This document shows positions 7,253-45,435 of a stretch of 64,000 bases of DNA, one piece after another. The position numbers and the translations under genes were made by a program. Positions within the stretch are counted from its first letter, which is position 1. Every line of letters starts with the position of its first letter. Origin of the DNA: Tubiluchus corallicola. Its lineage: Eukaryota; Priapulida; Priapulimorpha; Priapulimorphida; Tubiluchidae. Below the pieces are notes generated by a model that was not told where the DNA came from, did not search any database, and worked only from the letters and a program-made list of their open reading frames with translations. The stretch covers positions 3,122,306 through 3,186,305 of the forward strand of contig JAQGDQ010000001.1 of the NCBI GenBank assembly GCA_030141605.1, written 5' to 3'.

Positions 7253-10200
7253 ATGACTAAAGAACGAGTGAATGTGATCAATAGTTACTTTGTGAGGGCA
7301 ATGTCATTGCATCAGGTATGTTAGAATAATTTGAAAATGAAACAAATAGGGAGTGAAAAACTGCAAAGAAGTGTTTTTATTATGATTGTTTTCTGCCAAG
7401 CTTTTCTTAACATCATAAAGGTAAATATACATGATGCATATAAGTAGCAGTACTAGACTAAGATAACAATATTACTTGCAAGTAATTTTTGTACAAGCTC
7501 ATTCATTGGGAATTTTAATCTTAGAATAGGTAATATGACTAAAAGGATATATTTTAACATTTAGTTAAAATGCATCATTTTTGTCTTTTAGGAAACAGCA
7601 CATGATAATGGAATAATCAGAAGTCCATTTCCAGATGTCTCAATTCCTAGTGATGTCACTATTTTTCAGAGTGTATTTAATAATTTGGATATTTATGCAC
7701 ATAGCACTGCTGTAGTAGATGCCATAAGCGGGAGATCATACACATATCTTGACTTATCTTTAGCTGTAAAGAAATTTAGCAGTGCTTTGGCGCGGAACGG
7801 ATTCAAAAAGAGTGATGTTTTTGCCATTTGCATGCCCAACTGCCCTGAATTTGTCATTTTCTTTTTTGCTGTAATTGGCTTAGGTGGAACAGTCACGCCA
7901 ATAAATCCGGCATACACTACTAGAGAAATCCGTAATCAGTTATGTGATTCTGAAGCAAAATGGATAATATCTGTGCAAGAATTAGAAAAAAAGATTTGTA
8001 ATGCTACATCAAACATCGCTGCAATAAAACACAAAATATTTATGGGAGGAAAATCCTCTGAAAAGAATTTTTCTGCTGAAGAATTACTTCAAGATAATGG
8101 TTCTTGCTTTCCAAAACATGTACCAATTGATGTCCAAACGGATGTTGCAATTTTACCATATTCTTCTGGTACAACTGGTAAGCCCAAAGGTGTAATGCTG
8201 ACGCACTATTCTATAGTTGCAAATCTTCACCAAACAAAGATACAATGGCCATTTCGACCCGGAGACAAATACATTTGCTTTGTGCCAATGTACCATGCAT
8301 ATGGTATTTACTTGACGTTGGGTGCTTTAAGTAATGGTTCCAGTGTGTATTATTTGCCAAAGTTTCACCCAGATACTTTTCTTGGAACTATCCAGAAATA
8401 CAAAATTACTCATGCACACCTTGTTCCTCCAGTGATTATTTTCCTTGTCAAGTCTCCATTAGTGGAAAAGTACGATTTATCATCATTTCAGACTGCGTAC
8501 AGTGGCTCAGCACCATTAGGTAATTTTTAATATATGATTTACTCAGTTTTGCAATGTAAATGTCATTACAGATAGTTACTTCTTATATTAATTAGTTTTA
8601 TTTTGTTGTGCAATTGTCAACATTTTTGTTGATAAAAAATGATTTGAAGATTGAACATTCTCTGTCTGAAAACACAATTGAGCAAATTTGCATTGTGTAA
8701 TATCATGTGATTCCTTATAATTTCATATAGTTCTTAAATCAATTTTGTAATTAGCAAACGTATGACAATTTATTGATATCTAAATTTTGTAAATAACTGC
8801 AAACTGTGTGTATTGAACTTTGCTCTAGATTTTACTATGCACAAATCTATTTCAGTTAAATATTTTAAATTTCTAAAATATTCTTAGTTTGTTAGATCTA
8901 ATATGTTACTGCAAGTTATGTAGTAAGAATTTATAATATTTTTATTGATATTTAGCAAAAGAAATAAGCGATGCTTTTGTGAGAAAGTTTTCTCACTTAA
9001 AAACCTTTCAACAAGGTTATGGAATGACAGAAACAAGTCCTGTCGTATGTGCTACACCAGAATGGGAGATTTTGCCTTCTACTGTTGGATACGTTGTGCC
9101 AAATTCAGAAGCAAAGGTAATGTCAGTTGTATAAGTTTCAGTGAAGTTTCTAAAGCAATTTTTATGATGCGAAAAACGTATTGTAGATGTTTATATGGCC
9201 TGTCGTGCTATTACTTTAGTGTTTTCTCTTAGTTGCAAAGTACTGTGATGTTTGCATTGTGTAATATCATGTGATTCCCTATAATTATATAATTCGTAAA
9301 TCAATTTTGTAACTGGCAAGCGCAAAGTGGCATTTACCAGACATTCGGAATGCTTAATGCATTTTGTGTTATCCACCTGCGGAATAGCTCCTTATAAAAA
9401 ATCAATAGGAAATAGCTGCAGAAAAAAATAATGTATATTGCAGGTCTGATAAACGGGTGCATTGAAAACAGTGTGAACCGATTTTATCTATTCTGCATCT
9501 GCATAAAGCATAAACATTCCAGATGTCTAGTAAATGAAACTTCATATGGCTGGCATATAGCATATTGCATACGATCAGGTGAACTACTGGCGAAGCTGTT
9601 AGTTTCGTTGATGGACTACCAAGCTTTTTTTGTATGTGGCATAGCGCCATTTAATCATCTATTTGTATGCAACTCGTAATTGCAGTGGGCACCACCTAAT
9701 TTGAGTATGCTAGCAGTTGATTGACGAGCACATTTGTTTTATTCTAGCTCTAACAAACCAAAGTGGTTCTTATTCAGGTTGTTGATTTAAAGACTGGTGA
9801 AGCGCTTGGTCCTAATAAAGAAGGAGAGATATATGTAAGAGGTCCTCATATCATGAAGGGTTATTTGAACAATTCTTCTGCTACTGCTGAAGCTATAGAT
9901 TCTGAAGGATTTCTTCATACTGGGGATACTGGCTATTATGATGAAGAGGGGTATGTCACATATTAAATATCGCCATTTGTACAGTTTAGCAACAATATTC
10001 CAAGAAGGGAATAAAAAATGACTAAAATGACTTTTAAAAGTTGACGTTGAACTTTTAAAAATCTGCATGCGTTATTAATAGTAGAGCATCTTAATTAGTT
10101 AAACAGACCTGCGAATTCTCATTACATTAATTAGGTATGTATCACCAATGCACATGCACATTCGAATCAGATTTTAGTACTGATGCATTCCACAACTTCA

Positions 10201-11659
10201 CATGCAAGTTTGCACATTGCTTGGCTTCCTTTGCCATTAGTATGCCTGCTACTCTCAATAATATAGTAGCGCTTATAGTCCTATAATGTATGTTATACTA
10301 AAGGGTATTACAATTATTGGAAATTAAGCACTTTTGGGTATTACTGAGCTTTTTTCATATACCGACTATAATACATTAGTAGTACACCTGCTACTCTCAA
10401 TAATAGAGTAGCGTTTATGAGTCTTATAATGTATATTATACTAAAGGGCATTACAATTATTGAAAATTAAGCATTTTTGGGTGCTACTGAGCTTTTTTCA
10501 TATGTACAAAGGAACATATTTATACGTATAGCATAGTGAGCTATAATAACAGCTCAGTAGTACCATAAAATTGTCTTAATTTTAATTTTTTGCCTTAACT
10601 TTTTCGTAATTTGATTTTGATAATTAAAAATGCAAAAATTTCTGCAGCAAAATTTGTCACCTGGACCCCTGCCAGAGCGAGATGATCCCCGGGCTTTCTA
10701 CATTTCACACCCGTTTTTACTTCAAATAATTGGGAAGTCTTGTTAAGATAAAGCATATCTATTTAAAGGTCTTTGATGTTTTTCAAAATCAGTGCATTTT
10801 CTTGCGCTTGTTGACATACACATTGTATGTGACTAGGTCTTAATAGTTCATAAAAAATTAAAAAAATATTCTTATAATATTGTCAAGTCTTTAAATTACT
10901 TGCACTAAATTGTGTATGTTGTTCTGCATATTATTTTAGTGAAACTTGGTTAGTACAATAAAGTAGCAGTTAACTTGCCCACTAATTTTGGTACTACCCA
11001 ACTAACTGTCTCATAACAAACTCCTAATTTAAGAAAGTTACATGTGATATTGCAGTTCTCCTAAAATGCTGCACAGATTTACTTGTTTTTTATAGCGAAT
11101 CACATAAATAAAAATGAATAAAGCCAAAATACTGAAGAAGAATAAGAGAAAAATAAAGCCAAAATACTGCAGACTTACAGTATTGAATACTGAATACTGC
11201 AAACTTGCATTCATAATGATTTAAAGGTACTAAAATTATGATTTGCTTATTACTTAGTGGTAAACAATGTGAACTGAAACATTATTTAGCAATATCTTAT
11301 TAATTTGCAGGCATTTCTTCATAGTTGATCGAGTAAAGGAGTTAATCAAATATAATGCATACCAAGTGGCACCAGCAGAGCTTGAAGCATTGCTCCTTTC
11401 TCATCCGTATGTAGCTGATGCCGCTGTTATAGGAATTCCTAATGAACGCACTGGGGAGCTTCCTAAAGCATACATAGTAAAAAAGAACATCGACCTGACA
11501 AGAAGAGAAGTTCAGAAGTTTATAGAGAAAAATACAGCACCATTCAAGTGGCTCAGAGGTGGAGTGGAGTTTGTGTCAGAAATACCGAGATCTGCTAGCG
11601 GGAAAATTTTGCGAAAGTCTTTGCGTGATAGAGCAAGAAATACTAATGCAAAATTATAA
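7253..11659 (+). CDS. ACS1: acyl-CoA synthetase, 4CL/luciferase-like (ANL superfamily)
   Basis: Five coding exons: 7253-7315, 7592-8519, 8956-9116, 9778-9950 and 11311-11659, giving 557 residues. All introns are GT-AG, with phases 0, 1, 0, 2. The family activates a carboxylic acid as acyl-AMP and transfers it to CoA. Visible motifs: [10 protein letters not shown] (residues 212-221, phosphate loop), FHAYG-type A4 region written here as YHAYG, GYGMTE (351-356), TGD (432-434), hinge [20 protein letters not shown] from residue 448, and the catalytic-lysine segment SASGKILRK with K540. The C-terminus AKL fits a PTS1 peroxisomal signal. The N-terminal exon carries RVNVINSYF, a degenerate PTS2-like block. 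The ATG at 7253 is the first in frame after a splice acceptor, and two short upstream AUG frames precede it. Length is normal for the family. The substrate (phenylpropanoid, fatty acid or other) cannot be read from the sequence. Confidence 0.92.
8687..9322. repeat. Direct repeat of about 73 bp in introns 2 and 3 of ACS1
   Basis: Copies at 8687-8760 and 9251-9322 share TTTGCATTGTGTAATATC, then ATGTGATTCC and ATCAATTTTGTAA with few mismatches. They lie either side of the third coding exon. They may be two insertions of one short repeat or a local duplication that left the exon single. No terminal structure is evident. Confidence 0.75.
10245..10502. repeat. Two direct copies of about 118 bp in intron 4 of ACS1
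   Basis: Copies at about 10245-10362 and 10387-10502 begin CCTGCTACTCTCAATAATA and end TACTGAGCTTTTTTCATAT, with a 142 bp period and roughly ten differences. This is a local tandem duplication with a short spacer. It has no coding content. Confidence 0.8.
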
Positions 11660-13787: not shown

Positions 13788-13913
13788 GCACACGTAGTTG
13801 CTGTAGGTCAAATGTTAAGTGTACTACAGCAACGCATCTTAACTACAACTGCACACGTAGTTGCTGTAGGTCAAATGTTAAGTGTACTACAGCAACGCAT
13901 CTTAACTACAACT
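13788..13913. repeat. Perfect 63 bp tandem duplication with an internal hairpin
   Basis: Two units, 13788-13850 and 13851-13913, appear identical. Each contains the inverted pair GTTGCTGTAG / CTACAGCAAC, separated by a 17 bp loop. Because the period is a multiple of three, the block reads through as a repeated 21-residue frame, but nothing else suggests it is coding. Confidence 0.9.
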
Positions 13914-15067: not shown

Positions 15068-18000
15068 ATGAAGAGCATGTGGAAAATGCCATCTGCGAAT
15101 GCTAGTGAAAGGCTTGGCAGGATATCTTCACATTTGTGTGATGACAGGACATCTTATGTTGTAAGTACTATTAATCAATTTTATTTTTCTTGATGGTGAA
15201 AACGAGTCATAGCACACAAAGAATTGTAATGCTTTCCTTTTGACTTGTCATGCAGCTCTGATCTTTTCCTTTCTTAGCTGACTCCAGCTTATAGTAACAG
15301 TCGCTTTATGTACATACTCACACATGTGCGCCCGTGTGTGTGCGCTTGCATGTGTACACACGTGTGTGTAATCAATAGAAACATGTTGTCATGCTAATCT
15401 TAAGATTCACATTTAAAAATGCATACAAATATAGATATTTGTTCCTCACAAACGTTTTAGATGCTTCAGAGGTTTACGTATTTATTTCTCACGTTAAGGT
15501 CTATGTTTAATGCCTTGAGTCTGGACATGAACAGATTGCCAAAATAACAATACACGTTAAGAAGTCTTTTGGAGATTGTCAGTCTTATCCATGTGTTTAC
15601 CTCTTTGCTTATTGTAAGAGGTAGCATTAGTAGTTCTCAAAGTAGAAATTGCAAAATTTATGAAAGTTTGTGTGAAATATAATGAAACGTAAAATTTGAT
15701 TGTTTTTTTATAGACAAATCGACTATGCCATGAGGCCAGTTCATGCGAGTTAATTGTGAGAAGCCCATTTCCTGATGTCTTTATTCCTAACAACTTGCCA
15801 CTCTATCAGTTGCTCTTGAAAGCTGGCACAAAATACCCAAACAACTTAGCCGTAGTTGACGCTGTAACTGGACAATCATATACGTATCATCAGTTACACA
15901 AAGTAGTCAGAAAACTTAGCAGTGCTTTAACCAGACAGGGGTTTAGAAAGGGTGACACCCTTGCGTTATGTGTTCGCAACTGTCCGGAGTTCGTTATAGT
16001 CTTTCTTGGTGTTGTGGGCATTGGTGGAATATTATCACCAATTAATCCTTTATACACATCTTATGAAATACGTAGTCAGCTGCTGGACTCGGGGGCGAAA
16101 TGGATCATAACGGAAGTGGAAGTTCAAGAGAAGGTTCGTGACGCAGCAGCAAGACTGTCTGGAATGCGAGGTTTTTTTATTGTGAATGATAAAGCATTTC
16201 AAAAGAAGTCTTCATTTGGTGGATTGCTAGAGGATGATGGTTCTGCTATTCCTGAGTGCATAAGAATTGACGTTAAGTATGATGTAGCTGTACTACCCTA
16301 CTCATCAGGAACTACAGGACTGCCCAAGGGAGTTATGCTAACCCATTACAATTTGGTAGCCAACATTCACCAAGCTCAAGCTGCATGGCCTTTTCTGCCA
16401 AACAATAAGTACATTTGCTTTCTGCCAGCTTTCCATTCATATGGCATATTTCTCTTACTTGGTGCACTAAGTCATGGATCTGGCATATATATGCTTCCTG
16501 GGTTTCAACCAGAGACTTTCTTGAGTAGCATACAAAAATACAGGATCACGCATGCTCATCTAGTACCTCCTGTGATCACATTCTTAGTTAAATCAGCAAT
16601 GGTGGATAATTATGACTTGTCTTCTCTGCAGACTATTTACAGTGCTGCAGCTCCCTTAGGTAGTAAATGATATGACCTTTTCTTATTTGTTTTTCTGTTA
16701 ATGTTTGACTTTTCTAAATAGTGCAAATAATTCTAATAGCTTTTTCTTTTTAAAATTTTTCATAGAGTTCTCAAAATATCGAATTTAAGAAGAAAATGGC
16801 AGTATTTTTCATTAGATATAGAGTCAATATTTTAGACATGTAACCATCAGTGACTATTAATTGCTTTAGTACATATCATTTGCTCACCATTGATCACACT
16901 GTACTTCACATTGGGCTGTGAGTGACATTAGGTTGACCAAATTGTAGGCCTAATTTGCTGCTGGAACTTCGAAAGCTATCTTTGTTTACCTGCAAAAGAG
17001 CAAGAAAGGAATCATGCAAAAATTACCAAGTTTAGTTGGTATTATTGTTCATTCAGAATCAGCCTTTTATTCAGATATTGTGTTGCAATCAGAAAAATTA
17101 CGCAGATAATCAGAAACTAATAAAAGCATTTGCAGACAATGTTTAAATTTTAAGGTAGTATCTTTGCCTATAGTACATATCCTGTAAATGTTATGAGTGC
17201 ATTTCTTTAGATACATCAGTTTTATTATACCTTTTTGGTGTCAACAATTGATGGATTGTCACTGTTTGTTTAGCGAAAGACATTGGTATGGCGTTAATGA
17301 GAAAATTTTCGCACCTCAGGGCTTTTCAGCAAGGTTATGGTTTGACAGAAACGAGTCCAGTCGTAACAGCTACACCGGAATGGGAAATCATGCCGGCTAC
17401 ATCAGGTTATCTTATACCAAATACAGAAGTCAAGGTACATACAGATTTTGGTTTTTATGGAATCTTAACTGAGCAGTAATTAAAAGTATTAAGAGGTTTT
17501 GTTAATCCTTGATAGCCAGAGTAATAATCATGCCCTGTATTTAGTTTCACATTATCTTGAGTATAACGCATGAATTAAAGTAAATTTCCAGTTGCTTTGT
17601 TAGGTTTCAGCTAAGTTGAATCAAACTAGTTTCTTCATTAGTTTCAATCAAGTATTTTTTACTTCAATAGTAGCATTTAGTTTTTGATATACAGCTGTAC
17701 TTGCATCATTGTGAATAATATTAAACTGTGGCTACGTAACTTGCTAAGAATTTTTGTATCTCATTACAAGTATTTTGATTAGTTTAGAGTCAGAGCAGCC
17801 ATTAATTTAAGGTTCTTTTAATTTGCGAATTCTGGCTGATGAAAGGGAAATGTTTAAGTAGGCACAATCAATGCCTTGCAAACTGGTGCTTAAAATGAAG
17901 TTTCAAAATTTCATTTGCCATGTTTACAAATTATGTGCCTTGTTGAGGGAAGATACAATGTTTTGCACATGTATCTGAATGCAGCTACTGTATAAACAAT

Positions 18001-21000
18001 CTGTGCTGATTTAATGTTTTCTCACCTTCATGAACTTCATCACCTTTCAGCAGCCCTTTCAACAAGTGCTAGATCCCGCTTGCAGGGTGATAAACAGCAT
18101 AAAAAGTGGCTGGTATTATAAAGAAAATGAACATTTTGACTACATTATAATGTGCATATTAATATCAATTATAACACAGTTTTCTTTATGTTAGGTTGTA
18201 CATCTTGAAACTAAGGCAATAGTTGGGCCAAATGTGGAAGGAGAAATCTGTGTGAGAGGCCCTCAAGTGATGAAAGGATATTTGAATAATCTAAAAGCCA
18301 CCAGTGAAAGTGTTGATGCAGATGGTTTTTTCCATACAGGTGATACTGGATATTATACTAACGATGGGTAAGAAATTTGGCATAGTGTGTATTGGTGTTA
18401 CATAATGTTAGTTTTAGGCCACGGCATGTGCGTAAAAGCAATTGGGAAGGAGGAAGATAGTGGTCAGTTTTTTGCGACTGAGTTTGATTAAAATTTAGAT
18501 TAATGAACCAACAGTCTTCTTGCATTTCTGTTCTGTGTACGATGGAGGGGCGGTTGGAGGGGCGGTTATACTTAGATAAGATCTAGTAGTTATAATGCAC
18601 AGAATAAAAGTAAAATTTGATCTATCATTAATTGAAAAATGAATAAACATCATTCGAAAATATGGAGCAGTTAAGCTGAAAACTGTTACATGATTTGTTA
18701 TTAAGGGATTTCTGTTTGATTGTTGCACTGTTACAGGTGCTAATCATTTGCTGGCACACAAATGGTGAATGGCATGAATGGCTACACTGCTCACAGTGGT
18801 TAAAACAATGTGCAAGTTGGAGCATTATTCCAGTAACACAACAGTTAAAAATCAATCATTATAGATTTTAATGTTCAGATATAAAACCATCCCAAAAACA
18901 AGCATTTACATTGAACTACTGTTGAAGTGTGTTTTGGTTATTTATTTATTTATTAAATATACCCACAACGATCATTACAGCATAGCACGTAAAAGAATTT
19001 AATATCATATTTATCATTATGTACACAAGATGCCAAGCTGCAAATGATCCGTGGGATACTCAAGAAGTAATTACTTGTTCAGAGCACCCCAAATGAATGT
19101 GGATTGAGTGTAGTAGAAAAGAACAGTAAATGAGTAGAAAGGAAAAGTTAATAGGGAATAAAAAGAAAGAGAAAGATGTGATGGTATCTGTATGAAGTAA
19201 TGCGAACTATAGAAATGTAAAAATCGACATAGATAGCAACGCGATGGATCCCGACAGGGACAGCAACATAATTAGCCAAATTTATTTCTTCTATATAATT
19301 AGAAAAGATTTCACTTTTACAATTTCTTTTGAAGTTGTTTATAGATAAGAATTTTTTATGTATTCGTTGATGTTATTCTAAAGTCTAGGACCAGTGTTAG
19401 TGATGAAGTGCCTTGCCGCATCAGTCCTGCAATACTTAATTAGAAATTCATTAGATCTTGTTTAGTAATGTCTTACATTAGTAGATAATGGGTTTAAAAA
19501 GAAAGTGGGAAGTAGCTTATGTTTGGTTTTGTATATGTAAATAGTGGTATTTAGATTTATTTGATCATTTAGTGCTAGGATAGAATAGTTCTTAAAAAGA
19601 TTAAGACCTACATTTTTACGCTTGTTCAAATTAGCTATCAATCTTATGAACTTACATTGTAGAGAGTTTAATTTAAGTATAGATGAAGGGTAGGTGTGCC
19701 CCCAAAATATATTACAGTAGGTTAAGTATGGCAGTACTAGACAATTATAAAGTGTGATAAGATGTTCTTTAGTAAAATAATGTTTCACTCACGTTTAACG
19801 CAATTTTAGAATGAATCATATTTAAGTGTGGTTTCCAATGTAAGCGTTCATTTAAGATAACACCTAAGAACTTCATTTCATTTACTTGTTCTACTGCATT
19901 GCCATTAATTTTTATAATACTGTTCATATTTATATATTGTTACTAGCTCTGAATAAACTGTATTTACTTTTTGTTGAATTTAATGCAAATTTGTTGATTA
20001 TAAACCAGGCTGTAATTTTACCGAGTTCACTATTAATAGTGTCAAGTAGCTTGCTGTTTATCCTGAAGATAATACTTGTGTCATCAGCAAATTGGAAGAC
20101 CTTTCCATTGTCAGTAATACAGTTTTGTAAGTCATTAATATATATTAAAAGCAACAGAGGTCGAAAAATAGATCCCTAGGGTACGCCATGTGTGACTATT
20201 GCTTCATTGGGAAGGACATTGTTACATCTGACTACTTGAATTCGGTCCTTGAGGTTATTAGCATTCCATGAGTATGCCACCCTTCTAATGCCATCCTGGA
20301 ATAATTTATCTAGCAAAACATCATGATTAACTGTATCAAAGGCCTTAGAGAGGTTGCAAAAATGCCAATGGCAACAGTGTTTTGTTCTAATGAATTAATT
20401 ATGTTGTTTATTATATTAATTAGGGCTAGCCGTGTAGAACTGCCCTTTCTAAAGCCATGCTGATGATTATAAGGTGCATTTTCTATGGTCAAGTAGTCTA
20501 ATAATCTTTTATAGACAATTTTTTCTAATATTGTAGCAAAAAAAGCTAATAATAATATAGGTCTATAGTTATTAATATTTAAGGAGTCTTTAACCTTAAA
20601 TAAAGGAATAATTACTGATTTGTTTTTAGTTGATAAGGTAATATTCCTGTTGTCAATGAGCGATTTGTTATATGTGTTAAAGGAGCAGCTAAGTTATCAA
20701 TTAAATCAATTATGACTTTGGGTAGAAAATTATCAAAGCCTGCCCCTTTATTATGGTTGAAAGATTTACAAGTAGATTTTAATTCATTTATTGTAACAGG
20801 ACTGAACATAAAAGCAGATTAATAATCACCCTTAAGATAAACTTTAGGGTTAGCACCAGTATTTGGAATTTCTGCAGCTAATTTTTGACTAATCTGCAAG
20901 AAATGCTCGTTGAAAGCACAAGTGACAGGTTAATTGTCAGTTATTATAACTTGCTCTTACCTTTAAGGGCATATGAACCAGATTTTCTATCTGACTGTAT

Positions 21001-22546
21001 AATTTCTTTCATAATAATCCACGTTTTCTTCAAGTTAGTTTTAACATGTTCTAGTTTGTTTTGATAATAATTAGATTTAGAGAATTTTATCATATTGTTT
21101 AACCTATTACGATACTGTTTGTATTCATGAATAGTGAGATCATAATTAATATCATTCTTGAGAAGTTGAGTATACATCTTATTTTCACATTTAATGCTAT
21201 TTAAGATGGCAGGTGTTATCCATGGCTTTTTAATGGCACCAGAATTTATATTAGTGTTGTTAATTGTAGTTATATTGTTATTGTACATCATTTAAAATTT
21301 ATCTAAAAATAAATTATATGCTTCTTGTGGTTCAGATGTAGTATACACATCATTCCAATCAATGTTATCCAAGTCAGAAGCTAACTTGCGTTTGTTGAAT
21401 GTTGAATGTTGAACTATTAGGCGTTATACGTGTGGTAAGGTAAATTATAAGGAAATAAGTTTTGCAAGCAGATGTGGCAATACCAAACAACACCAGCAGC
21501 TGGTAGTTTATCTTTTAAAGAAAAATAAGTACATTTTAGATGAATAATTCTGCCGCAGCAGTCGCAGTTCAACCGCCTGCTGGTTGCGTCGAATACATTT
21601 ATCGCATATTGGACAAAAACTGTGTACAGGTACCATCAAAAAGCGCAGGGAAAATCAGGGTTAAAGAGATTACAGAATAGAAAAAGAATAAAAAAACAGA
21701 ATAAAATATCGCTAGAGGAGTGTAAGTTTAAAATATGAAAAAAAGTCATATAATCACATAAAGTCACTACTTTATGTAAGTGCAATACCACTTTTATTAG
21801 CATTGCACAGAAGCAACTTCTTTGGGTCGTATGACCACATTTTTGAAGAAGTACTAAAACTTGTGAAATATCTGCAGTAGTTACATCAAAATTATTAAAA
21901 GCGAAATGTCAAAAGTTGTACTTTATTGACATAAAAGGTTACGTTTTAGTGCACTACACTATTTGTATATAGCCACATGTGCAGTTTGTCATGCAAATTG
22001 GCTTGCAGTCTTGTAATTGATTATACCATGGATGCTCCTTTCTTTGTGCTTTGTTCTTAGCTCATTATTTTTAATGTTATTTTTTTGTCCTTAGATAATT
22101 CTGTCGTAAGACCATATGTAATTAAGCATAAAAAATAGTTACTATTAGATTAGCAGTTTTTATAGACTAACTATTTTCTCTCTCATTCTTTTTTTAGACA
22201 TTTCTTTATTGTTGATCGGGTAAAAGAGCTCATCAAATACAATGCATACCAAGTGGCACCAGCTGAACTTGAAGCTTTGCTTCTTTCTCAGCCAGGCATA
22301 GCTGACGCTGCTGTTATTGGAATTCCAAATCAGCGCACAGGAGAATTGCCTAAGGCATACATCGTGAAAAAGAATGAACAGCTGACCGAAGAAGAAGTTA
22401 AGAAAGTTATAGAGGAAAAACTGGCAGCATTTAAATGGCTTAGAGGAGGTGTACAATTCACAACAGAGATCCCAAGATCCATAAGTGGTAAGATCTTGAG
22501 AAAAGTGCTGCGGGACATTGAGAGGAAAAAGTGCCAGGTATTATAA
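15068..22546 (+). CDS. ACS2: acyl-CoA synthetase, 4CL/luciferase-like, with a PTS2-like N-terminus
   Basis: Exons 15068-15160, 15714-16659, 17274-17434, 18195-18367 and 22198-22546, phases 0, 1, 0, 2, giving 573 residues. The A3 motif reads [10 protein letters not shown], with leucine where the paralogs have lysine. Other motifs are [29 protein letters not shown] and the catalytic K556 in SISGKILRK. The small first exon contains RLGRISSHL at residues 15-23, a full match to the PTS2 peroxisomal consensus, followed by a cysteine. The C-terminus QVL is not a PTS1. A splice acceptor (CTTTCAG) ends at 15007, so the ATG exon is probably preceded by a non-coding exon. Intron 4 is long (3.8 kb) because it holds an antisense retrotransposon. 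The closest paralog by eye is ACS1 (shared [12 protein letters not shown]). Confidence 0.92.
18940..21410 (-). mobile_element. 5'-truncated Jockey/CR1-type non-LTR retrotransposon, antisense in ACS2 intron 4
   Basis: On the minus strand, reading from 21291 down to 19462, pieces appear in the right order. They are a [13 protein letters not shown] linker segment that normally follows the endonuclease, an [14 protein letters not shown] block, [15 protein letters not shown], an [11 protein letters not shown]-like catalytic block split by a frameshift, and FADDTSIIF, which carries the catalytic aspartates. The C-terminal segment with [12 protein letters not shown] follows. The endonuclease is absent. 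Frames are interrupted by stops and shifts, so it is inactive. The likely 3' end is marked by a (TTTA)n tract near 18940-18960 as read on the plus strand. It lies inside the intron and disturbs no splice site. Confidence 0.85.
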
Positions 22547-28450: not shown

Positions 28451-28889
28451 AAATATAAATATAATTATATATAAAACATATATATATGGTAAGGTATAGT
28501 AATTTACATTGAAAATAATTGGCAAATAGAAAACTTGCTGGAGATTTTAACAATAGCAAATTTTTTTCCGTTATTTATTTTTTGTCTTGTTGTTTTAAAA
28601 CTTCTGCATCTTAGGAAGAACCTAAGAAAATGTTCTAAAATTTTTGATGTTTATACCTAACTGCTTGAACATCAGTCTGGTAAAATTTTAAGTGACTCTG
28701 TTGTTTTCTATATGTAATATCATAATCAAAATTTTTGCACATTTTTGAGCCACTTGATGTATGTATAAAAGCAAAAATTCATTGGCTTTATGTCTCATGT
28801 ATTAAAGCACTTACATTAGCAAGCAAAAGCATAAAATCTTGACCAGTTTTATCTCGAGTAGTTTCATTGATTCAGCTTTGTAACTTCAG

Positions 28890-31800
28890 GTTGTCGAGTC
28901 GTATTGACTGGGTTAGAGAGACAGTTAAAACAGGTACATCTTTATCAGCAGCTGAGAGATTGAAAGGGCTAAAGGGACACCTATCTTGCCATTCTTTGGT
29001 ATGATGCCTGATCATTACTGACTTATAATCTTAAGATTCTATAATCTTAATATTAAGATTATTATTAATGATGGTACAAATCTGCAGTTTATTGTATCTA
29101 AAGACCATATGTGAAAAATAGGTTAAAGTGTTACCAGTAGGGGAACTGCAGGCTCAACATTAAAATTAATTCAATTAGTAGTTAGAACTGCTCTAGTATG
29201 AGTGATCTAACTTTGGAAATGCTGAACTGGCGGACCAGCTACAAGTGATTAACTTTGGATTGTTACAATTGGAACTGATTAGTCTAATGGCTTTGACATC
29301 TGCTTTGTCAGCAGATAGTCCCTTTTCAAATGCAGACTATGTTCGAGCTTTTTTACATTTCTTGATTTTCAAGTTCAATTTTCTAAATTCAGTTAATTGT
29401 TTCTTTGTACCATTGCATCTGACTGTGTAGCTCATTAAACAGTATTACGAAAATGAAGAAACATTTATGTTAATCAATTTTAATTTGGGATAACAGTATT
29501 AACTCTTAATTCATATCTTTTATAAAGTGTTAATAAATTATAATTATTTGCCTTACTGCCAAAAAGCAAAATCGTGATGCCGATTTTGAGAAAAGGATGA
29601 TTCACTAATGTATAGTACATACGTAGGGTGCATGGACATTAAAATAATTTTGTTTTTCAGCAAACAGTTGGTTGTAGCAGCTCTAGTCAGTTCTTCGTTC
29701 GCTGCCCATTTCCAGAAGTTTCCTTGCCTGATAATGTAACTGTATCTCAGTTCTGCTTACACGAATGTGACAAACATCCTGATCGCGTTGCCTTAATTGA
29801 TGCAAATACAGGTTTGATGTACACTTATGGGAAGTTAAAAATTTTAGTGAGAAATTTTGGCTACTCACTGGTGCAGCTGGGTTTTAGAAAAGGTGACGTA
29901 TTTGCGATATGTTCTCCGAACTCTCCAGAATACATTATCGTTTTCTTGGCAGCTGTTCAACTTGGAGGTATTATAACAACTACTAATCCAGAAAACACTG
30001 ATCATGAGCTGTATGGCCAGTTTGTAGATTCGGGCGCAAAGTGGGTGTACACAACGTCTTTGATACAAGAAAAGGTTGGTAGTGCAGCTATAAGGACTGG
30101 TCAAATACGGAAGATTATAGTTTTGGGAAATGCACATTTTAAGGACACTGTAACATTTGATGACTTGCTTCAAAGCGATGCACCAGCATTTCTAAATCAA
30201 TGTAAAATTAATGTAAAAGCTGACTTGGCAATATTGCCGTATTCTTCGGGAACTACAGGAAAGCCGAAGGGAGTTCAGTTGACACACTACAATGTTGTAG
30301 CGAACAATCTCCAGGCTCAACTGCAATGGCCATTCAGACAAGAAAACAAGTATCTTTTTCTTGTGCCAATGTTTCACATTTATGGCACTTTTCTTATACT
30401 TGGAATTCTGCATAGTGGTGCTGCTTGTGTCATCTTGCCCAAGTTTCACCCACCTGATTTCTTGAACACCATCCAGAAGTACAAGATAACTCATGTTCAT
30501 CTTGTTCCACCAATCATTAATTTTTTGGTGAAATCTAGCATGCCAAATACCTATGACTTGTCATCATTACAAACTATTTATTGCGGTGCAGCACCTTTAG
30601 GTAAGATTTTCACATCTTTTCCGAAGATCTATTTTTTTAGTAAAGTATGTCTCAGAAGTTGGTTTACATTTTGATGCTGCTTACGGTTACAAGAGTTAAT
30701 GCATCAACCAAAATATAGGTGTTTAAAATAAGGTCAAAATTTTTAGCCAGATATTCATTAAGAAATAATGGAAACATTGGCATATGTTGTCATCGTTAAA
30801 ATGAACTGTTGTTATATGGGGAGTTGTTTTAACTCTCTCCATCACTTTCAATATTGAATGATAAATTCAGAAACCAAAGTTGCCGTAAGAGGTTGTTAAA
30901 AATAAGAGCTTGACTGCTTTTAGATATTCTTGAAACTATATGTACGTGTGGCTTTGTGGCTGTTTTTTAACCTCTAACATTAAGGTTTTGACAGTTTAAC
31001 ATCTCATGAGTCTTTTATTAAAAGAAAAGTCATGGCTGTTGTTGGCAAGTTGACTTATTTTAACATCTGAGAAAAATGTTATAAAGTTTAAGCAATAAAA
31101 TTCCCATAAGCGCCTCTTGTAATTAGTGGCAGCAATTTGAAGTAGTGATCATTTCACGCTATTCATTGGGTGCACTCATTATGAATGAAAAATGACATCG
31201 TTCGGTTACTGTGCAATATCAACCCTTCAGTGCTTCATAGTGTTTAAGCGAACTTTTGCAAATGCAGGCACTGTTATTAACTATAAACTATCCAAAATAT
31301 TAAAGGAGAGATTATAAATACTGTTTTTTTATTAATCTGGTTGCCCACTGTGTAAGGAAAGCAATTACTGATGACAGAACAGTAATACGAAAATCTGGCT
31401 AGTTAACTCCCAGAGAGCAACAGAATAATTAGTTTAATAAGCTAAAACTCAACTTTATAAGCTAGGTAACCCACCTGACATCAGTACGTAGGTGCAAAAT
31501 TGCACGCTTGTCTAAAAGTCAACATATATCTGTATGTCCAGTACAATACTTGCGATTTTTAAGATATAATCCTGTGAATTAAAACTGTGGAATAAGGTAA
31601 CATAACAAGTATTAGCAATGTAAGTTGATGCTAATTGAGCGGATGACTAATTTTTACAAAAACATAATTAAACACAAAGATTTAATCAGCTAGTGAGTGA
31701 ACTCCAGAAATTTTGCTATGCGTGCCTTCGTGCTGTCTGCTAGCTTATGTAATTTTTTTCAAATGTGCCCGCAGTGAGGCTCGCTTAGTGGGAAATAAGA

Positions 31801-33686
31801 ATTTAAATTTCTCTTGCATTTTAACAAGGTGTTTTATGCACGCATATTGTGTAATAATTTTAATATTTTTAATTGCTTATTAAGATACAATGAATGTCGT
31901 TTGAGATTAGTTTTCCTTTTAAATTCGAGTTTGTGGAATATGAATTTTAGCTTTAATTTATTGTTGCTTCATTGGATAAATCTTTCTTACAAAATTATTA
32001 TCACTGCTGACTTAACCACTGACCTGAACTGCAAGTGCTTAAACCAAAGTTTTACGGCAGGTTTATCCATCTAACTGACACTTTTTCTCGTTTCTTATTA
32101 GCAAAAGAAGTAGGAGATGAGCTGTTAAAAAAATTTCCAACTTTGAAGACTTTCCAGCAAGCTTGGGGTATGACTGAGACAAGTCCTATTGGCACGGCTA
32201 TGCCGGAAAACGAGGCATTTTCTGGCTCAGTTGGCTACCCTGTGTTAAATACAGAAATGAAGGTACTTATTTAAACGCAGTTACAAATCCTATAAGAATT
32301 TTTGTTCTAACGCTTCTGCCCTGTTTCGTAATTACGTTAGTGTTGATTGTGAATTGCCAAATGTTTTTTAAGTATTGTTAATGTTGATTTAGGTTGTTGA
32401 CTTTGAAACGGGTGTATCGCTTGGTCCGAACAAAGAGGGTGAACTGTGGCTTCGAGGACCTCAAGTGATGAAGGGCTACCTCAACAACCAGACCGCAACT
32501 AACGAATGCATTATGGCCGATGGATTTCTGCGAACTGGAGATACTGGATATTACACTGAGGATGGGTAAGTATTTGTTCAACACATTTCAAAGCTCATAT
32601 AAATCTTAAGTGGTGACTTATGACTGATTATTTTCTTTTAACTTTTGAACAGATTGTTCAAAATGGAGTTTGTAAACTAACATAGATGTAGCAAAAGCAG
32701 CAATAATAGTATGTTAATTTTAAACCACTTAAGAAAGTAAAAGGGTTTTCCTTTATTTTTGGTTCCATTTCAACATGGCTTTAGTTGCAAAAATGATCAT
32801 CTAAATGTGGATACAAAAATTTTGAAAACTGTTTAGTAGGAATTGCTCAATGAGAATCGAATTTTCTGTAGCTTTTTTCTTTGAAGAAACCATGGATAGG
32901 GTTAATGATGGTACAAACCCCACAATTAATGAAAGAAAGATAGGAAATGTGAAAAGTTGTAATACAACCAAGATTTGAACCAATACCTGCAATATTGAAA
33001 ATGCTGAATTTGGGTGGCCATCTATAAGGCTGTACTTTGGACTGCCTTGATCACTGAGAATTCAGTTGCCTAGTGGTCTAAGGCATCTGACTTTTAAACA
33101 GGGTCCCTGCCACCTGGTTCGAAGTCAAACTGTTTTCTCAACTTTTTCAAATTTTCACTCATTCAAGCTTCTATTAAAATTTAATTGTTGCTTTTGTACC
33201 ATCACCATTAATAATAATAATAATGATAATCATGAACAATCTTATTATTATAATAATTAATGGGTAGGATTAAATTGTGGAGAGGTAAGACGAGTTATGA
33301 AAAAACTGTAGGAAGGTAAATGGCAATTGCTTGTTTTCATTTATAGGCATTTCTTTATCATTGATCGAGTAAAAGAGCTCATTAAGTACAATGCATATCA
33401 AGTAGCACCAGCTGAGTTGGAAGCGCTGTTGCTGACGCATCCTGGTGTAGAAGACGTTGCTGTAATTGGAATTCCAAATGAATGGTCAGGAGAAGTACCA
33501 AAAGCCTTTGTTGTGAGGAAGCATGACAATGTGACAAAGAGAGAGTTGATCAAGTATGCTGAGCAGAGACTTGCACGTTATAAATGGATCAGGGGCGGTA
33601 TTGAATTTGTACCAGAAATTCCTAAATCACCAAGTGGAAAAATCTTAAGAAAAGTTTTACGGATGAAAGAAAAAAGTAAACTTTAA
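28890..33686 (+). CDS. ACS3: acyl-CoA synthetase, 4CL/luciferase-like, SKL terminus; start codon not found
   Basis: Secure exons: 29661-30600, 32102-32262, 32393-32565 and 33347-33686 (537 residues), phases 1, 0, 2. Motifs: [15 protein letters not shown], an unusual AWGMTE where paralogs have G(Y/F)G(M/L)[25 protein letters not shown] and SPSGKILRK. The C-terminus is SKL, a canonical PTS1. A probable N-terminal exon at 28890-28998 lies between an acceptor (AACTTCAG) and a GTATGA donor. It joins in phase 0 like the paralogs and reads AERLKGLKGHLSC, aligning with the PTS2-like block of ACS2 and ACS5. That exon has no in-frame ATG, so an upstream coding exon must supply the start or the 5' end is damaged. 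The catalytic exons themselves look intact. Confidence 0.85.
28999..29170 (-). repeat. Possible SINE 3' end in ACS3 intron 1
   Basis: On the minus strand the stretch around 29045-29075 reads TTTGTACCATCATTAATAAT, the tail shared with the SINE-like copies at 32925-33055 and 33060-33240. The head region is not recognisable, so this is probably a truncated or decayed copy. Confidence 0.35.
32925..33055 (-). repeat. tRNA-derived SINE-like copy
   Basis: On the minus strand a B box (GGTTCAAATCTTGG) is followed downstream by TTTGTACCATCATTAA. This tail motif is shared with the plus-strand copy starting at 33060. The A box is weak. It lies in ACS3 intron 4, head to head with its neighbour. Confidence 0.55.
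33060..33240 (+). repeat. tRNA-derived SINE-like copy with a TAA tail
   Basis: The head TTGCCTAGTGGTCTAAGGCA and CATCTGACTTTTAAAC resemble a tRNA with a TTT anticodon (lysine-like), followed by the B box GGTTCGAAGTC. The body ends in TTTGTACCATCACC, then ATTAATAATAATAATAATG and similar triplets, a usual SINE tail. The cloverleaf does not close, so it is not a tRNA gene. Confidence 0.65.
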
Positions 33687-34480: not shown

Positions 34481-34488
34481 TGTACATT

Positions 34489-37132: not shown

Positions 37133-40100
37133 ATGGCAAACAGAAATTACTTATCATTACCAAGCAAGCCAGTTGAGGAACAACTGCAAAGAACATTTGG
37201 ACACACGGTCAAACCAGCAGCTCTGGTATGTTAAATTTGCTAGTTGATTATGATATCAATTGCATTACTATAGGTGTTCATATGCTTTTACTTTGAAATG
37301 TTTGGATGTTTTGACATGTTAGCAGCATTGCAGCAGCCACACTTTGTTTAAAAATTTCAATGCCATGGCAGCACATCCAGACATTACAAAATAAGAATTA
37401 TGAGAATGGTCATCTTTTTGAACTGTCGGTTCAATGATGGCCAAACACATGACTTGTTGATTATATCTATGATACTGTTTGAAAGTTCTGTTGAAGCTAA
37501 TAAAAACATGCAGTGTTACTTCTCCAGATAATTTACAAAGACTTTTAATTTCAAATCATCTAACAAAAGTTATTATTTGGAAAAAACTTAATATTTCATT
37601 TTTGATCACTACAGATGCTATAGGCTGTATGATTTTCGGAAAAATGATAAATATTTTTAGATAAAGAAAATTTATTAAACGTTATTATTAGAATATTTTT
37701 TTCAGAAAATTGCATCGTGTAGTGCACAAGGTAACATCATCAGAAGTCCATTTCCCGATGTTGATATACCAGATGTTTCAGTTTATCAGCTTTTTCTGAA
37801 CAGTTGTTTTGCATACCCACAAAATTTAGCAGTCGTTGATGCTGAAAATGGCCAAGCATATACCTATGAACGATTACTGAGATGCGTAAAAAAATTTGGC
37901 AGTGCTCTTGTACGGAGAGGATTTAGGAAAGGTGACATATTGGCAATATGTGTTCCCAACTGCCCAGAGTACGTAATACCATTCTTTGCTACAGTGGCTA
38001 TTGGCGGAATAGTAACAACAATAAATCCTGTTTATACTGCAAATGAAATATATCATCAATTGCAAGATTCTCAGCCAAAATGGATAGTGACAGCACCTGA
38101 AGTACTAGAACGTGTCTCTCAAGCTGTTGATATGAAAATGGGAAATGAAGTAGTCATTGTTATTGGGGAAGAAGTGACTAAAAAGCATTTGTTGTTTTAC
38201 AACTTATTAAAAGATGATGGAAACGCCTTCCCAGAATGTGTTCCAATAAATGTGCAAAACGATGTAGCCATTTTGCCATATTCGTCAGGTACCACAGGGA
38301 AGCCAAAAGGAGTAATGTTAACACATTACAATTTAGTAGCCAGTGTGCATCAGACAAGAATGTGTTGGCCTGTTGCACAAGAAAACAGATATATTTGTTT
38401 TCTACCTATGTTCCATTTATATGGAATCTTTTTAACTCTGCTTGCGCTAAGTCATGGAGCATGTATCTATTATCTTTCAAAGTTTGAACCAAGGTTATTT
38501 CTTCAAACACTGGAAAAGTACAAGATAACACATGCACACCTTGTACCACCCGTTGTTAACTTCTTGGTCAAGTCGCCACTTACAATGAAATATGATTTGT
38601 CAAATCTTGAGAAAGCTTACTGTGGAGCTGCTCCATTAGGTAGGTGTGTAGTGCAAGTTGCTTATTTTTCTTCAATAGTCCGATCATCATCACAGTAACT
38701 TTTAACAAAGAAGTCAGCGCTAGTAAAAATGGTTATAAGAACATCCGCATTGATTTGGCAATTGTGGTAGGCCTGATCTAATATGGGGATGATTTACACT
38801 TTTTGTACTTTCAGGAAAAGAAACTAGTGAAGAACTTCTACGAAAAATTTCGTCATTGCAATTGTTGCAGCAAGGTTTTGGCATGACAGAAACAAGCCCT
38901 GCTATCACCGTCTGTCCAGAAACAGAAATGATTCCATCTACTGTAGGATATGTTGTGCCAAACTCTGAAGTGAAGGTAACTAGTAAAAGTGGTTTTTAAC
39001 TCTTATTCAGTTAGGGAACATTTATATTTCCGAAATTACGTTAAATTTTTATAACATTTCTGATTATTGTTGTAGGTTGTTGACTTACATAGCGGAAAAG
39101 TTCTTGGCCCAAATGAGGAAGGTGAGATCTGTGTACGAGGTCCCCAAGTGATGAAGGGGTATCTGAATAATCCAAAAGCAACAAATGAAACTATTTATCC
39201 TGATGGTTTTTTGCATACTGGTGATACTGGTTACTACACTGATAAAGGGTCTGTACTAATGGAATTTGATAATTTAGAGTTTAAATACCACAGACCCCTA
39301 ATGTGCAATTTACATCACAGTAACAGCAGTGCACAAGAGTGTGTTGGCCTGTTGTATGAATGTATTGTATTACATTCATGACAAGTAAAATACACTACAT
39401 TAATCCCATATTGCAGCAACACATTTTACCACATTTACGATTATTCATCTATTTTTTGTGTAAGAAATGTCCTAAGTGATATCTTGCTGCTGCATACTTC
39501 TTACAGATTACAGTCAGTCAACAAAATTGAACAAATATAGTTAATACAGTGTGATTTTGCAACCTATTACTATTATTATTAGTTACTTAAACTTTGCTGA
39601 TAGTGGCTATTATTTAATATTTCCCTAACAGCTTTTTTCATGCCATTATAATAATGATCCACCAACTTTTCTTAAACTTCTGTGGTTCATCAAACCAGCA
39701 ATTTTGTTATTGTTGTCTAGTTATTGGCATCTGAGCTTTTAATTTTATACAGTGTCATAAGAATGTGAATTGAGAGCTTCCAATTTTTTGATACAGCTGA
39801 AAATTGTTTAGTTACAAATTTTGCAGCATGATTTCTGTTGACATCTGTAATCGTTGAGATTTTGTTCATTTAAGCACCAGATTCAGATTTCGGGATTAAT
39901 AATTGCTTGTTGTAATATAGGTTTTTTTTCAGTAAAATATTTTCTCATGAAGTGTTATGGAAGTTAAACGTTGAGAATTGATGGTTTGGGTAAATAGGTG
40001 CCACACACTTAGTAACCTTTGTTCACTTGCATTGATATATCTTTTCAGACTTTTCTACATTGTTGACAGAGTGAAAGAACTCATAAAGTACAACGCGTAC

Positions 40101-40397
40101 CAGGTAGCACCAGCTGAATTGGAAGCATTACTAATATCCCATCCTGGTATAGAAGATGCAGCTGTAATTGGAATTCCTGATATGAGAACTGGTGAAGTCC
40201 CAAAAGCATTTATAGTGAAAAAAGACAAGACCTTAACTGGAGAACAAATTAAGATGTTTGTGAAGCAAAATGTTGCAAATTTCAAACAACTGAGAGGTGG
40301 ACTAGAATTTGTGACTGAAATTCCAAAGTCGGGCAGCGGTAAGATTCTCCGAAGGATACTGCGGGAGAGAGAGCAACAAATTCGTAGTAAATACTGA
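37133..40397 (+). CDS. ACS4: acyl-CoA synthetase, 4CL/luciferase-like, no canonical peroxisomal tag
   Basis: Exons 37133-37225, 37706-38639, 38815-38975, 39076-39248 and 40049-40397, phases 0, 1, 0, 2, giving 569 residues. All family motifs are present: [44 protein letters not shown], and K552 in GSGKILRR. The intron after the 173 nt exon uses a weaker donor (GTCTGT). The C-terminus is SKY, one residue away from the PTS1 SKL. The first exon has QLQRTFGHT at residues 17-25, a degenerate version of the PTS2-like block. An acceptor (GTTTTCAG) ends at 37124, eight bases before the ATG. The closest paralog by eye is ACS5 (shared VKKDKTLT). Confidence 0.92.
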
Positions 40398-41822: not shown

Positions 41823-41849
41823 ATACTTTGCCAGTCAGGATAAGTAAAG

Positions 41850-44800
41850 ATGGAGTCTGCCAAACACAGATTAGAGCGAATATTTTCGCATTTTACTGGA
41901 GTTCAGCAAAGACGTGCTGCTGTGAGTACAAATTAATGTTCATAAAATAGATATCACTATAAGTGAGCAAAAGCAAAATAGCTATAGTGACCAAAGTTGA
42001 ATGAGCAGTGCCAAATTCAGTAGTGGATGGATGACCACATGTAGAACTGCTTTTGGTTGTCTCACATACAAAACTGTCTTGTCCTAGCTCTGTATCTCGT
42101 CTTAGAGGATTATTTTACCATAACCATCATACCATTAAGTAGGTTTTGCTACTGAGTGTTGGATTCCAGCTTTCAAAGCGCAGCTACACAAAAAATAGCT
42201 GTAATAGTCTGCTAAAGGAAAATAAGACTATATAAATCATTTTGACTCAAGGTCTAAAACGTACCTCATCAACATTAAGACCTATAATAACTGCCAAACT
42301 GTTTCTTATATTAGAATTATAGTTCAGAATTCTGAAACTGATATTAATGCAAGCAGAGTTAATCATGTCGTCACCAACGTGAGGACAATTCTCTAACAGA
42401 AGGATCTGTCGTCAGCACCTCGTACATGTTTGCATCACATCGATACTGAAATACAAACTTGTTGAATTTCAAATTCATTGATATGCTAATGCAACTTTAC
42501 AAGGCTGTATGTGTGTCGAGAATGAGTTGTTTAGAAACTACAGACCTGGTGATCCGGTATACTTATCTTCATTTTCGGGCAATGCATGATTGAGAAACAG
42601 GTATAGTCATCCATATAAGTAGGAACAGCTGGGAGCATTTAACGATTATAAAATTAACAAAACTAATCTTTTGATGTGATGATTCCTTAATGTAAATCAT
42701 TCTTTAAAAGAAAATTTTTGTGAGTAAGATATTTTAGATACCAGGTTACTTTGAGTTATGGTCTAAAACTATTTACTATTTTCCTTTTATACTTTTCATG
42801 GACTTCAAGTGTGATTCGAGTATTCTGTTGACATATCACACAACAGCAGACACCACAAGACAAATTGAATACCGCATATCCATTGTATACAAAACATATT
42901 TGTAAATTGCATAAAAGACTGTCTAATAAGAATTGTCTTATTTTCAGAACATTACACAGTGTAGCTCTGAGAAGAATATTATCAGAAGCCCACTTCCAGA
43001 TGTTTACATTCCCGACAATGTTTCAGTTTACCAGCTTTTTTTGGAAAGTTGTTTAAAACATCCACACAACTTCGCTGTTGTTAATGTTGAAAATGGCTGC
43101 TCATACACGTACCAAGAGTTACTGACGTCTGTGAAAAAATTTGGCAGTGCATTGGTACGAAGGGGATTTAACAAAGGTGATATTTTGGCAGCTATTGCTC
43201 CAAACTGCATTGAATATATAATTTGCTTCTTTGCCACAGTAGCTGTTGGTGGAGCAGTAACAACAATAAATCCAGTATACACAGAAAATGAGATACTCTA
43301 CCATTTACAAGATTCAAAACCGGGATGGATAGTAACAACAGCCAAAGTGCTAAAAAATGTTCTTGCAGCCACTGGAAAAACGACAGTGAAAGAAGAGATT
43401 ATTATTATTGGAGGGAATCCATGTAAACAGTTAATATCTTTTGCAGAGTTGTTAGAAGATGATGAGTCTGCTTTCCCAGATTCTTTGCACATAAATGTGC
43501 ATAATGATCTAGCTGTAGTGCCATACTCATCTGGAACTACTGGAAAACCCAAGGGTGTAATGTTAACGCATTATAATTTGGTTGCAAATCTGTATCAAAA
43601 GTCAGATCTTATATATGGACAACCTGACCATAGATGCATATTTTTTCTACCTATGTTTCACATATATGGTATAGCTGTTGTGTTACGTGTGTTTCATATA
43701 GGAGCTTGCATCTATTTACTATCAAAATTTGAGCCAAAGGTATTCCTTCGTGCTGTGGAAAAGTACAAGATAACAAATGCCCCTCTTGTACCACCCATAA
43801 TCAACTTTCTGGTCAAGTCACCACTAATAAAGATGTATGATTTATCCAGTCTAGCTGTTGCTCACTGTGGGGCTGCACCTCTAGGTATGCTTGCCCGTAC
43901 ATAATATTATACTAATTATACTAGGCATAACCTGGTAGAAACTGGTAATGACGTCAGTTAGTTTTATAAGATCTTTAAGTTACTATAATGGGCATATTTA
44001 TGTCTGTTAAATTGGAGCCTGGTGATTGAAATAGAAAGCAACAGATGATAAAACTTTTGTTTCCAACTTAATTTTAGCTTTCTTTACTCATTTTAATGAG
44101 GTTTAAATTTAGCACTGTATAAATTTGCATTGTCACAAATTCATTTTTAGAACATGTTTGAATAGAACTTTATAAATCAAGCTTTATATAAGCTTTATAC
44201 ACTGTATTATAAAATTATGTACTATATTGTGCTCCAATGAGCAGCTGTTCTATACTATTCTACACAGTACTGCATTTTCATCTGTACGGTTAATACTCCT
44301 CCCTATGCTATCAGGTATTCTATTTGTGATATTGTTGCTCTTATTGTATTTTTTTAAGTACAGTAACACTCATTCAGTTATTACAGAATTTCAGTATTTC
44401 AGGAAAAGAAATGGTTGAAGAACTTTTGAAGAAAATTCCAACTTTGCAAAATTTACAGCAAGGTTATGGTATGACAGAAGCCGGTCCTGCCGTTATTAGC
44501 ACACAGGGAATGCAGGAACAGATGTCATCAACTATAGGATATGTAATACCGAACACTGAAGTAAAGGTATTGCACTTTATCTAACCACTTGATTTTTACA
44601 AGAAAAAAAAACAAAGACAAGGGAGAAAAGACAGCATGTCATAACATTTTGCTCAAAAGCTCCATCAATAGCTTGTTTGGGTTTTGTTCAAACCATGCTC
44701 TATGGGCAAATCTAGACTTCATACTGACCCCTAATAACCAGTATACCATACTAACTTTATAAATTTATGACAACTGTAACTATACTACAGGTTGTTGACT

Positions 44801-45435
44801 TGAAAACTAGAGTTGCTCTTGGTCCAAATCAAGAAGGAGAACTGTGCATAAGAGGTCCACAAGTGATGAAGGGATACCTGAACAATCCGAAAGCAACGAA
44901 AGAAATCATTAGTCCTGATGGTTTTTTGCAAACGGGCGACATTTGCTATTACACTGAGGAAGGGTGAGTCTTATCTTTTGCACTTCTTACCATGTCATGT
45001 AAAAATTTAGCTTGGTGACACTTTTTGTTCCTGCAAATTAATAGAAAAATTGTTAAGTAATCTAAAAACTTAACATTTGTTTGTAGGCTATTCTACATAA
45101 TTGACCGAGTGAAAGAGTTGATCAAAGTCAATGCGTACCAAGTAGCACCAGCTGAACTTGAAGCAGTGCTCATGTCTCATCCTGGTGTAGAAGATGCAGC
45201 TGTTGTAGGAATTCCAAGCGAGAGAACTGGTGAAGTACCAAAAGCATTTGTAGTGAAAAAGGACAAGACCTTAACGGAAGAACATATTAACATATACATG
45301 AAAAAAAATGTTGCACCATTCAAATTACTGAGAGGTGGCATAGAATTTGTGAGAGACATTCCAAAATCTGCTAGTGGTAAGATCCTTCGAAGAAAATTAC
45401 GTGATGCTGAAATTAACAAAAGTAGGGAACGATAA
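41850..45435 (+). CDS. ACS5: acyl-CoA synthetase, 4CL/luciferase-like, with a near-PTS2 N-terminus
   Basis: Exons 41850-41921, 42948-43884, 44403-44566, 44791-44963 and 45087-45435, phases 0, 1, 0, 2, giving 564 residues. Exon 3 is one codon longer than in the paralogs. Motifs: [24 protein letters not shown] (others have TETSP), TGD within [26 protein letters not shown], and K547 in SASGKILRR. The conserved ITHAHLVPP of ACS1, ACS2 and ACS4 is changed to ITNAPLVPP, a site near the active-site tunnel in family structures. The first exon has RLERIFSHF at residues 7-15, close to PTS2. The C-terminus RER is not a PTS1. An acceptor (TATTTTCAG) ends at 41822, upstream of the ATG. Confidence 0.92.

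Follow-up and report, generated by a model that had tools for sequence, protein, structure and literature searches.

Why should five neighbouring copies of one enzyme gene differ at both ends, in the places where peroxisomal import signals would lie? The question is raised by a tandem array of acyl-CoA synthetase genes (here ACS1 to ACS5) of the priapulid Tubiluchus corallicola, located at positions 7253-45435 of the window, the whole 64 kb stretch of DNA analysed here, which forms the end of contig C1874 (assembly size: 343.5 Mb). Unless a contig or locus is named, coordinates are those of the window. The original prediction, made from the DNA letters, held that the copies carry different combinations of a C-terminal peroxisomal targeting signal of type 1 (PTS1) and an N-terminal nonapeptide of type 2 (PTS2). 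The motif states at both ends of the five proteins do differ in this way, and we consider it probable, from the sequence, that exon 1 of the array evolved as a PTS2 signal and that the copies independently kept or lost PTS2 and PTS1 after tandem duplication.

All five genes lie on the + strand, encode 4CL/luciferase-type acyl-CoA synthetases and are intact, with a common plan of five exons (small exon 1, long exon 2 and three more) in identical phases. The exons were joined by hand using reading frames and splice sites; in these models, GT-AG borders are present at every intron and all copies are open to the stop codon. The genes are as follows:

7253..11659, + strand: ACS1 gene; exons 7253-7315, 7592-8519, 8956-9116, 9778-9950 and 11311-11659; 557 aa; PTS1 AKL
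15068..22546, + strand: ACS2 gene; exons 15068-15160, 15714-16659, 17274-17434, 18195-18367 and 22198-22546; 573 aa; C-terminus QVL, without PTS1
28891..33686, + strand: ACS3 gene, start codon not located; coding 28891-28998 (5' limit uncertain), 29661-30600, 32102-32262, 32393-32565 and 33347-33686; PTS1 SKL
37133..40397, + strand: ACS4 gene; exons 37133-37225, 37706-38639, 38815-38975, 39076-39248 and 40049-40397; 569 aa; C-terminus SKY
41850..45435, + strand: ACS5 gene; exons 41850-41921, 42948-43884, 44403-44566, 44791-44963 and 45087-45435; 564 aa; C-terminus RER

The exon 4 donor of ACS4 (GTCTGT, 39248-39253) is weak, unlike that of the other copies.

The AMP-binding domain PF00501 scored above cut-off at all five loci, and the catalytic motif YSSGTTGxPKGV and the C-terminal domain lysine motif GKILRR/K are invariant in the five copies. 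The closest solved structures for ACS4 (E-values down to 1e-114) in the PDB are an ancestral luciferase, a plant 4CL and Drosophila CG6178; the match to these structures starts at ACS4 residue 41, and exon 1 therefore lies outside the fold. Pairwise non-synonymous divergence (Ka) in the core is 0.24-0.39 and synonymous divergence (Ks) is >1 or saturated, which indicates old duplications and purifying selection on the enzymes. None of the copies looks like a pseudogene, and the core appears to be under strong purifying selection.

Exon 2 of each copy contains no methionine ahead of the conserved RSPFP, so that all five genes must have a coding exon further upstream. Within 1.5 kb 5' of each exon 2, all candidate coding exons with a plausible donor and the right phase were collected, and the highest-scoring block of 11 residues across the five copies was then sought without supplying the expected motif. 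The best block (score 183) consisted of the same five exons that the original prediction had aligned on one nonapeptide. A score of at least 183 was reached in 1/1500 Markov-shuffled sets (mean 128.8, standard deviation 13.7) and in 0/1500 sets drawn from non-overlapping bins of real window sequence (maximum 177). These results support the homology of the five first exons at the nonapeptide. All five nonapeptides were found as they had been quoted, with their motif grades, in open frames that run to a GT donor and enter exon 2 in phase 0.

An in-frame stop just 5' of the ATG fixes the start of ACS5 and the start region of ACS2. Two features of the 5' ends had been omitted from the earlier account: the first-exon frame of ACS3 is without an ATG, so that its start codon must sit in a further upstream exon, and out-of-frame ATGs precede the ATG of ACS1. 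For ACS3, the candidate start ATG/GTAAGG (28486-28488, spliced to 28876) was the neatest of several enumerated and is not claimed here. The ATG-less exon of ACS3 and the acceptor-like sites found 5' of candidate starts would fit gene models that are wrong at the 5' end, with real transcripts using other first exons and the nonapeptides left untranslated. We regard such an error as very improbable, since no copy can do without a coding exon ahead of exon 2, these five are more alike than any other combination of candidates, and the upstream stops of ACS2 and ACS5 argue against it.

The nonapeptides were tested for (R/K)(L/V/I)x5(H/Q)(L/A) within approximately the first 40 residues, using the strict and broad PTS2 consensus as given previously (PMC3781343, PMC4585086):

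7265..7291, + strand: ACS1 RVNVINSYF, degenerate PTS2 position, outside the consensus; located by the five-way block test
15110..15136, + strand: ACS2 RLGRISSHL, full (strict) consensus match; residues 15-23 from the first in-frame ATG
28957..28983, + strand: ACS3 RLKGLKGHL, broad consensus match; position in the protein uncertain
37181..37207, + strand: ACS4 QLQRTFGHT, degenerate PTS2 position, outside the consensus
41868..41894, + strand: ACS5 RLERIFSHF, near-consensus; residues 7-15, with F at positions 6 and 9

Columns 1 (R), 2 (L), 5 (I), 7 (S/G) and 8 (H) of the block are conserved and columns 3, 4 and 6 are variable; the conservation sum of the PTS2 key positions (1, 2, 5, 8 and 9) is matched by 3 of the 126 five-position subsets. 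Glutamate stands immediately ahead of the nonapeptide in four of the five copies, and acidic residues ahead of a PTS2 are described as typical (PMC4585086).

At the other end of the proteins, the C-termini read AKL, QVL, SKL, SKY and RER from ACS1 to ACS5, exactly as predicted. When the last three residues were tested for [SAC][KRH][LM], QVL, SKY and RER did not fit PTS1, and two copies did:

11648..11656, + strand: ACS1 C-terminal AKL, canonical PTS1
33675..33683, + strand: ACS3 C-terminal SKL, canonical PTS1

The SKY of ACS4 is one residue from SKL and reads as erosion. PTS1-type C-termini are known in the 4CL-like/luciferase-like acyl-CoA synthetase clade. If the copies were independent, two of five C-termini would fit PTS1 by chance with a probability of ~5e-5, and two of five N-termini would match the PTS2 consensus with ~6e-4; both figures are weaker in truth, because the copies are related.

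A third element of the N-terminal region is residue 5 of exon 2, which is cysteine in ACS2-ACS5 and aspartate in ACS1, in a variable stretch (the slash marks the candidate cut):

7604..7606, + strand: ACS1 Asp codon at the Cys position of the other four
15726..15728, + strand: ACS2 Cys codon, candidate processing site TNRLC
29673..29675, + strand: ACS3 Cys codon, candidate processing site QTVGC/SSSS
37718..37720, + strand: ACS4 Cys codon, equivalent place KIASC/SAQG
42960..42962, + strand: ACS5 Cys codon, candidate processing site NITQC/SSEK

Cysteine in at least four of five copies at one column occurred in 0.2% of within-sequence shuffles. In plants and mammals, cysteine at or next to the cut recurs in PTS2 presequences (PMC3830196), and the peroxisomal thiolase of the same genome (MHRAAIIVNHLSKNDTRYRSDGIVSMQQC/STASVQDGD) has Cys-Ser at the corresponding place (MQQC/STAS after MHRAAIIVNHL). 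From this placement we infer that the presequences of ACS2-ACS5 may be cleaved at the cysteine. ACS1 has both the most altered nonapeptide and a PTS1 of its own, so that the loss of Cys and the loss of PTS2 coincide in this copy.

The alignment of the nonapeptides had also been taken to imply that the animal keeps the PTS2 import route, and the receptors were found when the genome was searched for PEX7 and the long form of PEX5. The presence of PEX7 decided one refuting condition of the original prediction in its favour. PEX7 appears complete: its exons, which cover most of the protein (residue 13 to the C-terminus), lie at C1718:240578-247244 with ~55-62% identity to human over most exons (approximate percentages). 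PEX5, on contig C807, carries DDPKLTSTE and then, in the next exon, KFMKFVKQIG, which correspond to the segment of the human long form that binds PEX7 (DDPKLANSEFLKFVRQIG). The single exon of PHYH starts MAASDRIRVLHAHL and includes the good PTS2 RIRVLHAHL. Together, PEX7, the PEX5 motif and the PHYH signal support retention of the route, which is ordinary here because most metazoans keep it: PEX7 is retained by most of them and nematodes are the known loss (PMC4690255). The thiolase (L038 1828-2001, - strand) starts MHRAAIIVNHL, with the PTS2 variant RAAIIVNHL (Ala at position 2), and AGPS is present, although a search of 17 kb upstream did not reveal its exon 1. A second, slightly diverged copy of one PEX7 3' exon lies ~3.6 kb upstream of PEX7 (C1718:236941-237075; L036 2942-3076), and AGPS was found on two contigs (C1338 and C1677) with identical exon scores, as retained haplotypes or a recent duplication.

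In the arrangement that we propose, exon 1 would encode an N-terminal extension made of an acidic residue, an R-L-x5-H-L nonapeptide, a flexible linker and, near the enzyme start, the Cys as a possible cut; import would proceed via PEX7 and long PEX5 (PTS2), or via PEX5 alone (PTS1). After the old tandem duplications, each copy would have kept or lost the two signals independently. ACS3 would retain both, provided that its modelled start is correct, and ACS2 PTS2 alone; ACS1 would retain PTS1, its PTS2 having gone together with the Cys, and ACS5 would retain a near-consensus PTS2. ACS4 would have neither tag in working form, making it the best candidate for a copy outside the peroxisome, or for one imported as a partner. 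The copies may in this way have been sorted to different compartments after duplication. Use of exon 1 in the mRNA, import driven by the motifs and the direction of the changes are all points that we infer from the sequence.

A sixth paralog (C2067:334600-347831) has the same five-exon plan, is without PTS1 and ends YEKPEKG. Its exon 1, MRSAFSVLLSSGLSKPHSLKQVYFNRQWQKWRLWHE, aligns with array exon 1, has no acidic residue in 35 positions and looks mitochondrial, so that more than one change of compartment may have occurred in the family. If this paralog were the ground state, exon 1 would serve as a mitochondrial presequence in at least some of the array copies, and its similarity to PTS2 would arise incidentally from a short amphipathic, Arg-rich helix. 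PTS2 and mitochondrial presequences are indeed physically similar helices (PMC4585086), and ACS5 is basic (K+R 5, D+E 2 in the first 30 residues). Presequences are, however, nearly without acidic residues (PMC4585086), whereas ACS1-ACS5 have 2-3 in the first 30 and the C2067 paralog has 0; the Glu of four array copies stands directly before the nonapeptide, conservation of R, L and H at specific positions characterises PTS2 and not presequences, and ACS1 and ACS3 end in a canonical PTS1. A mitochondrial role of exon 1 in the array is, in our judgement, unlikely.

The order of the changes was read from a tree of the enzyme core, rooted on the C2067 paralog and on relatives at C1809 and C1092. 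The latter are two intronless 4CL-like ORFs (C1809: L007 847-2454, - strand; C1092: L008 1459-3072, + strand) with neither PTS1 nor PTS2; in the tree they form a group next to the C2067 paralog, and they are possibly retrocopies or symbiont genes. Within the array, ACS3 branches first, followed by (ACS1, ACS2) and (ACS4, ACS5), with ultrafast bootstrap (UFBoot) supports of 84, 90 and 100. ACS4 has the shortest branch; as the slowest-evolving copy, it is not a dying gene. The original prediction, which as a whole is supported in part, had derived the array from an ancestor with both tags. Such an ancestor is plausible, as the earliest-branching ACS3 has both tags; for PTS2, with ACS5 counted as PTS2-like, two losses are better than three gains, and for PTS1, two losses are neither better nor worse than two gains (ACS1 and ACS3), so that here the dual-tagged ancestor is not uniquely parsimonious. 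The fuller history, in which a dual-tagged 4CL-like ancestor gave rise to copies that rely on PTS1, on PTS2, on both or on neither for import, is a tentative reading that falls somewhat short of probable. In the bacterial/archaeal and viral contig collections, a search for orthologs returned only bacterial or distant relatives (<=46% identity).

Several observations weigh against independent keeping and losing of PTS2 and PTS1 from a PTS2-bearing exon 1. The full consensus is present in only two of the five copies, ACS5 being near-consensus, and a consensus match is not proof of import, because the zebrafish Uraha nonapeptide RLQHIRGHI, a consensus-matching PTS2, failed in a reporter (PMC8919083). 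ACS4 keeps its Cys despite a degenerate nonapeptide; the ATG-less first-exon frame of ACS3 and the out-of-frame ATGs ahead of ACS1 count on the same side, as do the moderate tree support within the array (84 and 90) and the outgroups (C2067, C1809 and C1092), which have neither tag. With Ala at position 2 of the thiolase signal and AGPS exon 1 not found, the PTS2 set of this genome is only partly canonical. Finally, TYSND1/DEG15 was not detected in the genome by an exon-wise search, which may miss it; the TYSND1 matches obtained were rejected as bacterial DegP-like ORFs with bacterial neighbours. Bacterial contigs are present in the assembly, as expected for an animal with symbionts.

The scarcity of full consensus matches and the failed zebrafish reporter would also suit an exon that is homologous throughout the array but whose nonapeptide is a decaying relic or a coincidence, without present import; the AKL and SKL copies would then be peroxisomal by PTS1, which alone suffices for ACS1 and ACS3, and the rest cytosolic. 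Exon 1 and the linker do diverge much faster than the core (proportion of non-synonymous differences, pN, 0.42-0.65 vs 0.21-0.31). Against this near-saturated background, the key PTS2 positions are nevertheless conserved, ACS2 has a full PTS2 and the Cys but no PTS1, and the PTS2 receptors and one PTS2 cargo persist in the genome; we consider a relic improbable. An exon 1 that evolved as a PTS2 signal, followed by separate fates of the two tags in each copy, is the reading that we retain.

Comparable enzymes are known in plants, where Arabidopsis LACS6 (PTS2) and LACS7 (PTS1 and PTS2) are peroxisomal acyl-CoA synthetases (PMC8019973). As in that pair, peroxisomal-type acyl-CoA synthetase paralogs in the array differ in having PTS2 alone or both tags, the array being known from sequence; unlike that pair (two genes of the plant long-chain LACS clade), the array belongs to the animal 4CL/luciferase-like clade, has five tandem copies and includes the state with no tag. 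The copies share their fold and catalytic motifs with the CG6178/firefly luciferase lineage (PDB 7kyd, 6k4c), whose members start at the fold, whereas the array copies carry an extra exon-encoded N-terminal extension of 30-50 residues with a PTS2-like motif. The arrangement of nonapeptide, linker and Cys at the processing site (the Cys as in thiolase) is that of classical PTS2 cargo and is seen in PHYH and ACAA1 of this genome. The main PTS2 cargo listed for zebrafish and human comprises only thiolase ACAA1, PHYH and AGPS (PMC8919083); acyl-CoA synthetases such as those of the array are absent from that list. No report of a sponge or metazoan 4CL-like PTS2 cargo was found in the open literature searched, where an animal cargo of this kind appears to be undescribed; this absence is not proof of novelty.

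Change of compartment after gene duplication is well known, both for peroxisomal enzymes (PMC3798809) and in Arabidopsis (PMC4202327). The array resembles these cases in that a targeting signal is gained or lost between paralogs, and differs from them in that both types of peroxisomal signal vary within one tandem array, with localisation predicted only. The question of how cargo passes from PTS2 to PTS1 is still open and is discussed in PMC7710942. Animal peroxisomes have a handful of known PTS2 enzymes, and the route has been lost in some animal lineages. With both tags in graded states along one array, and with the joint loss of Cys and PTS2 in ACS1, tag exchange could be followed copy by copy. 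If the dual-tag split is true, the exchange would be under way while both routes work, and acyl-CoA synthetases would be added to the very few PTS2 cargoes known from animals. ACS4, if cytosolic, would represent a change of compartment through tag erosion in an intact, slowly evolving enzyme.

Two further observations concern the non-coding parts of the array. Reverse-transcriptase fragments (RVT_1, under the curated cut-off) lie at 19462-21291 on the - strand, within the long fourth intron of ACS2, and a 63-base unit is present in two identical tandem copies between ACS1 and ACS2 (13788-13913).

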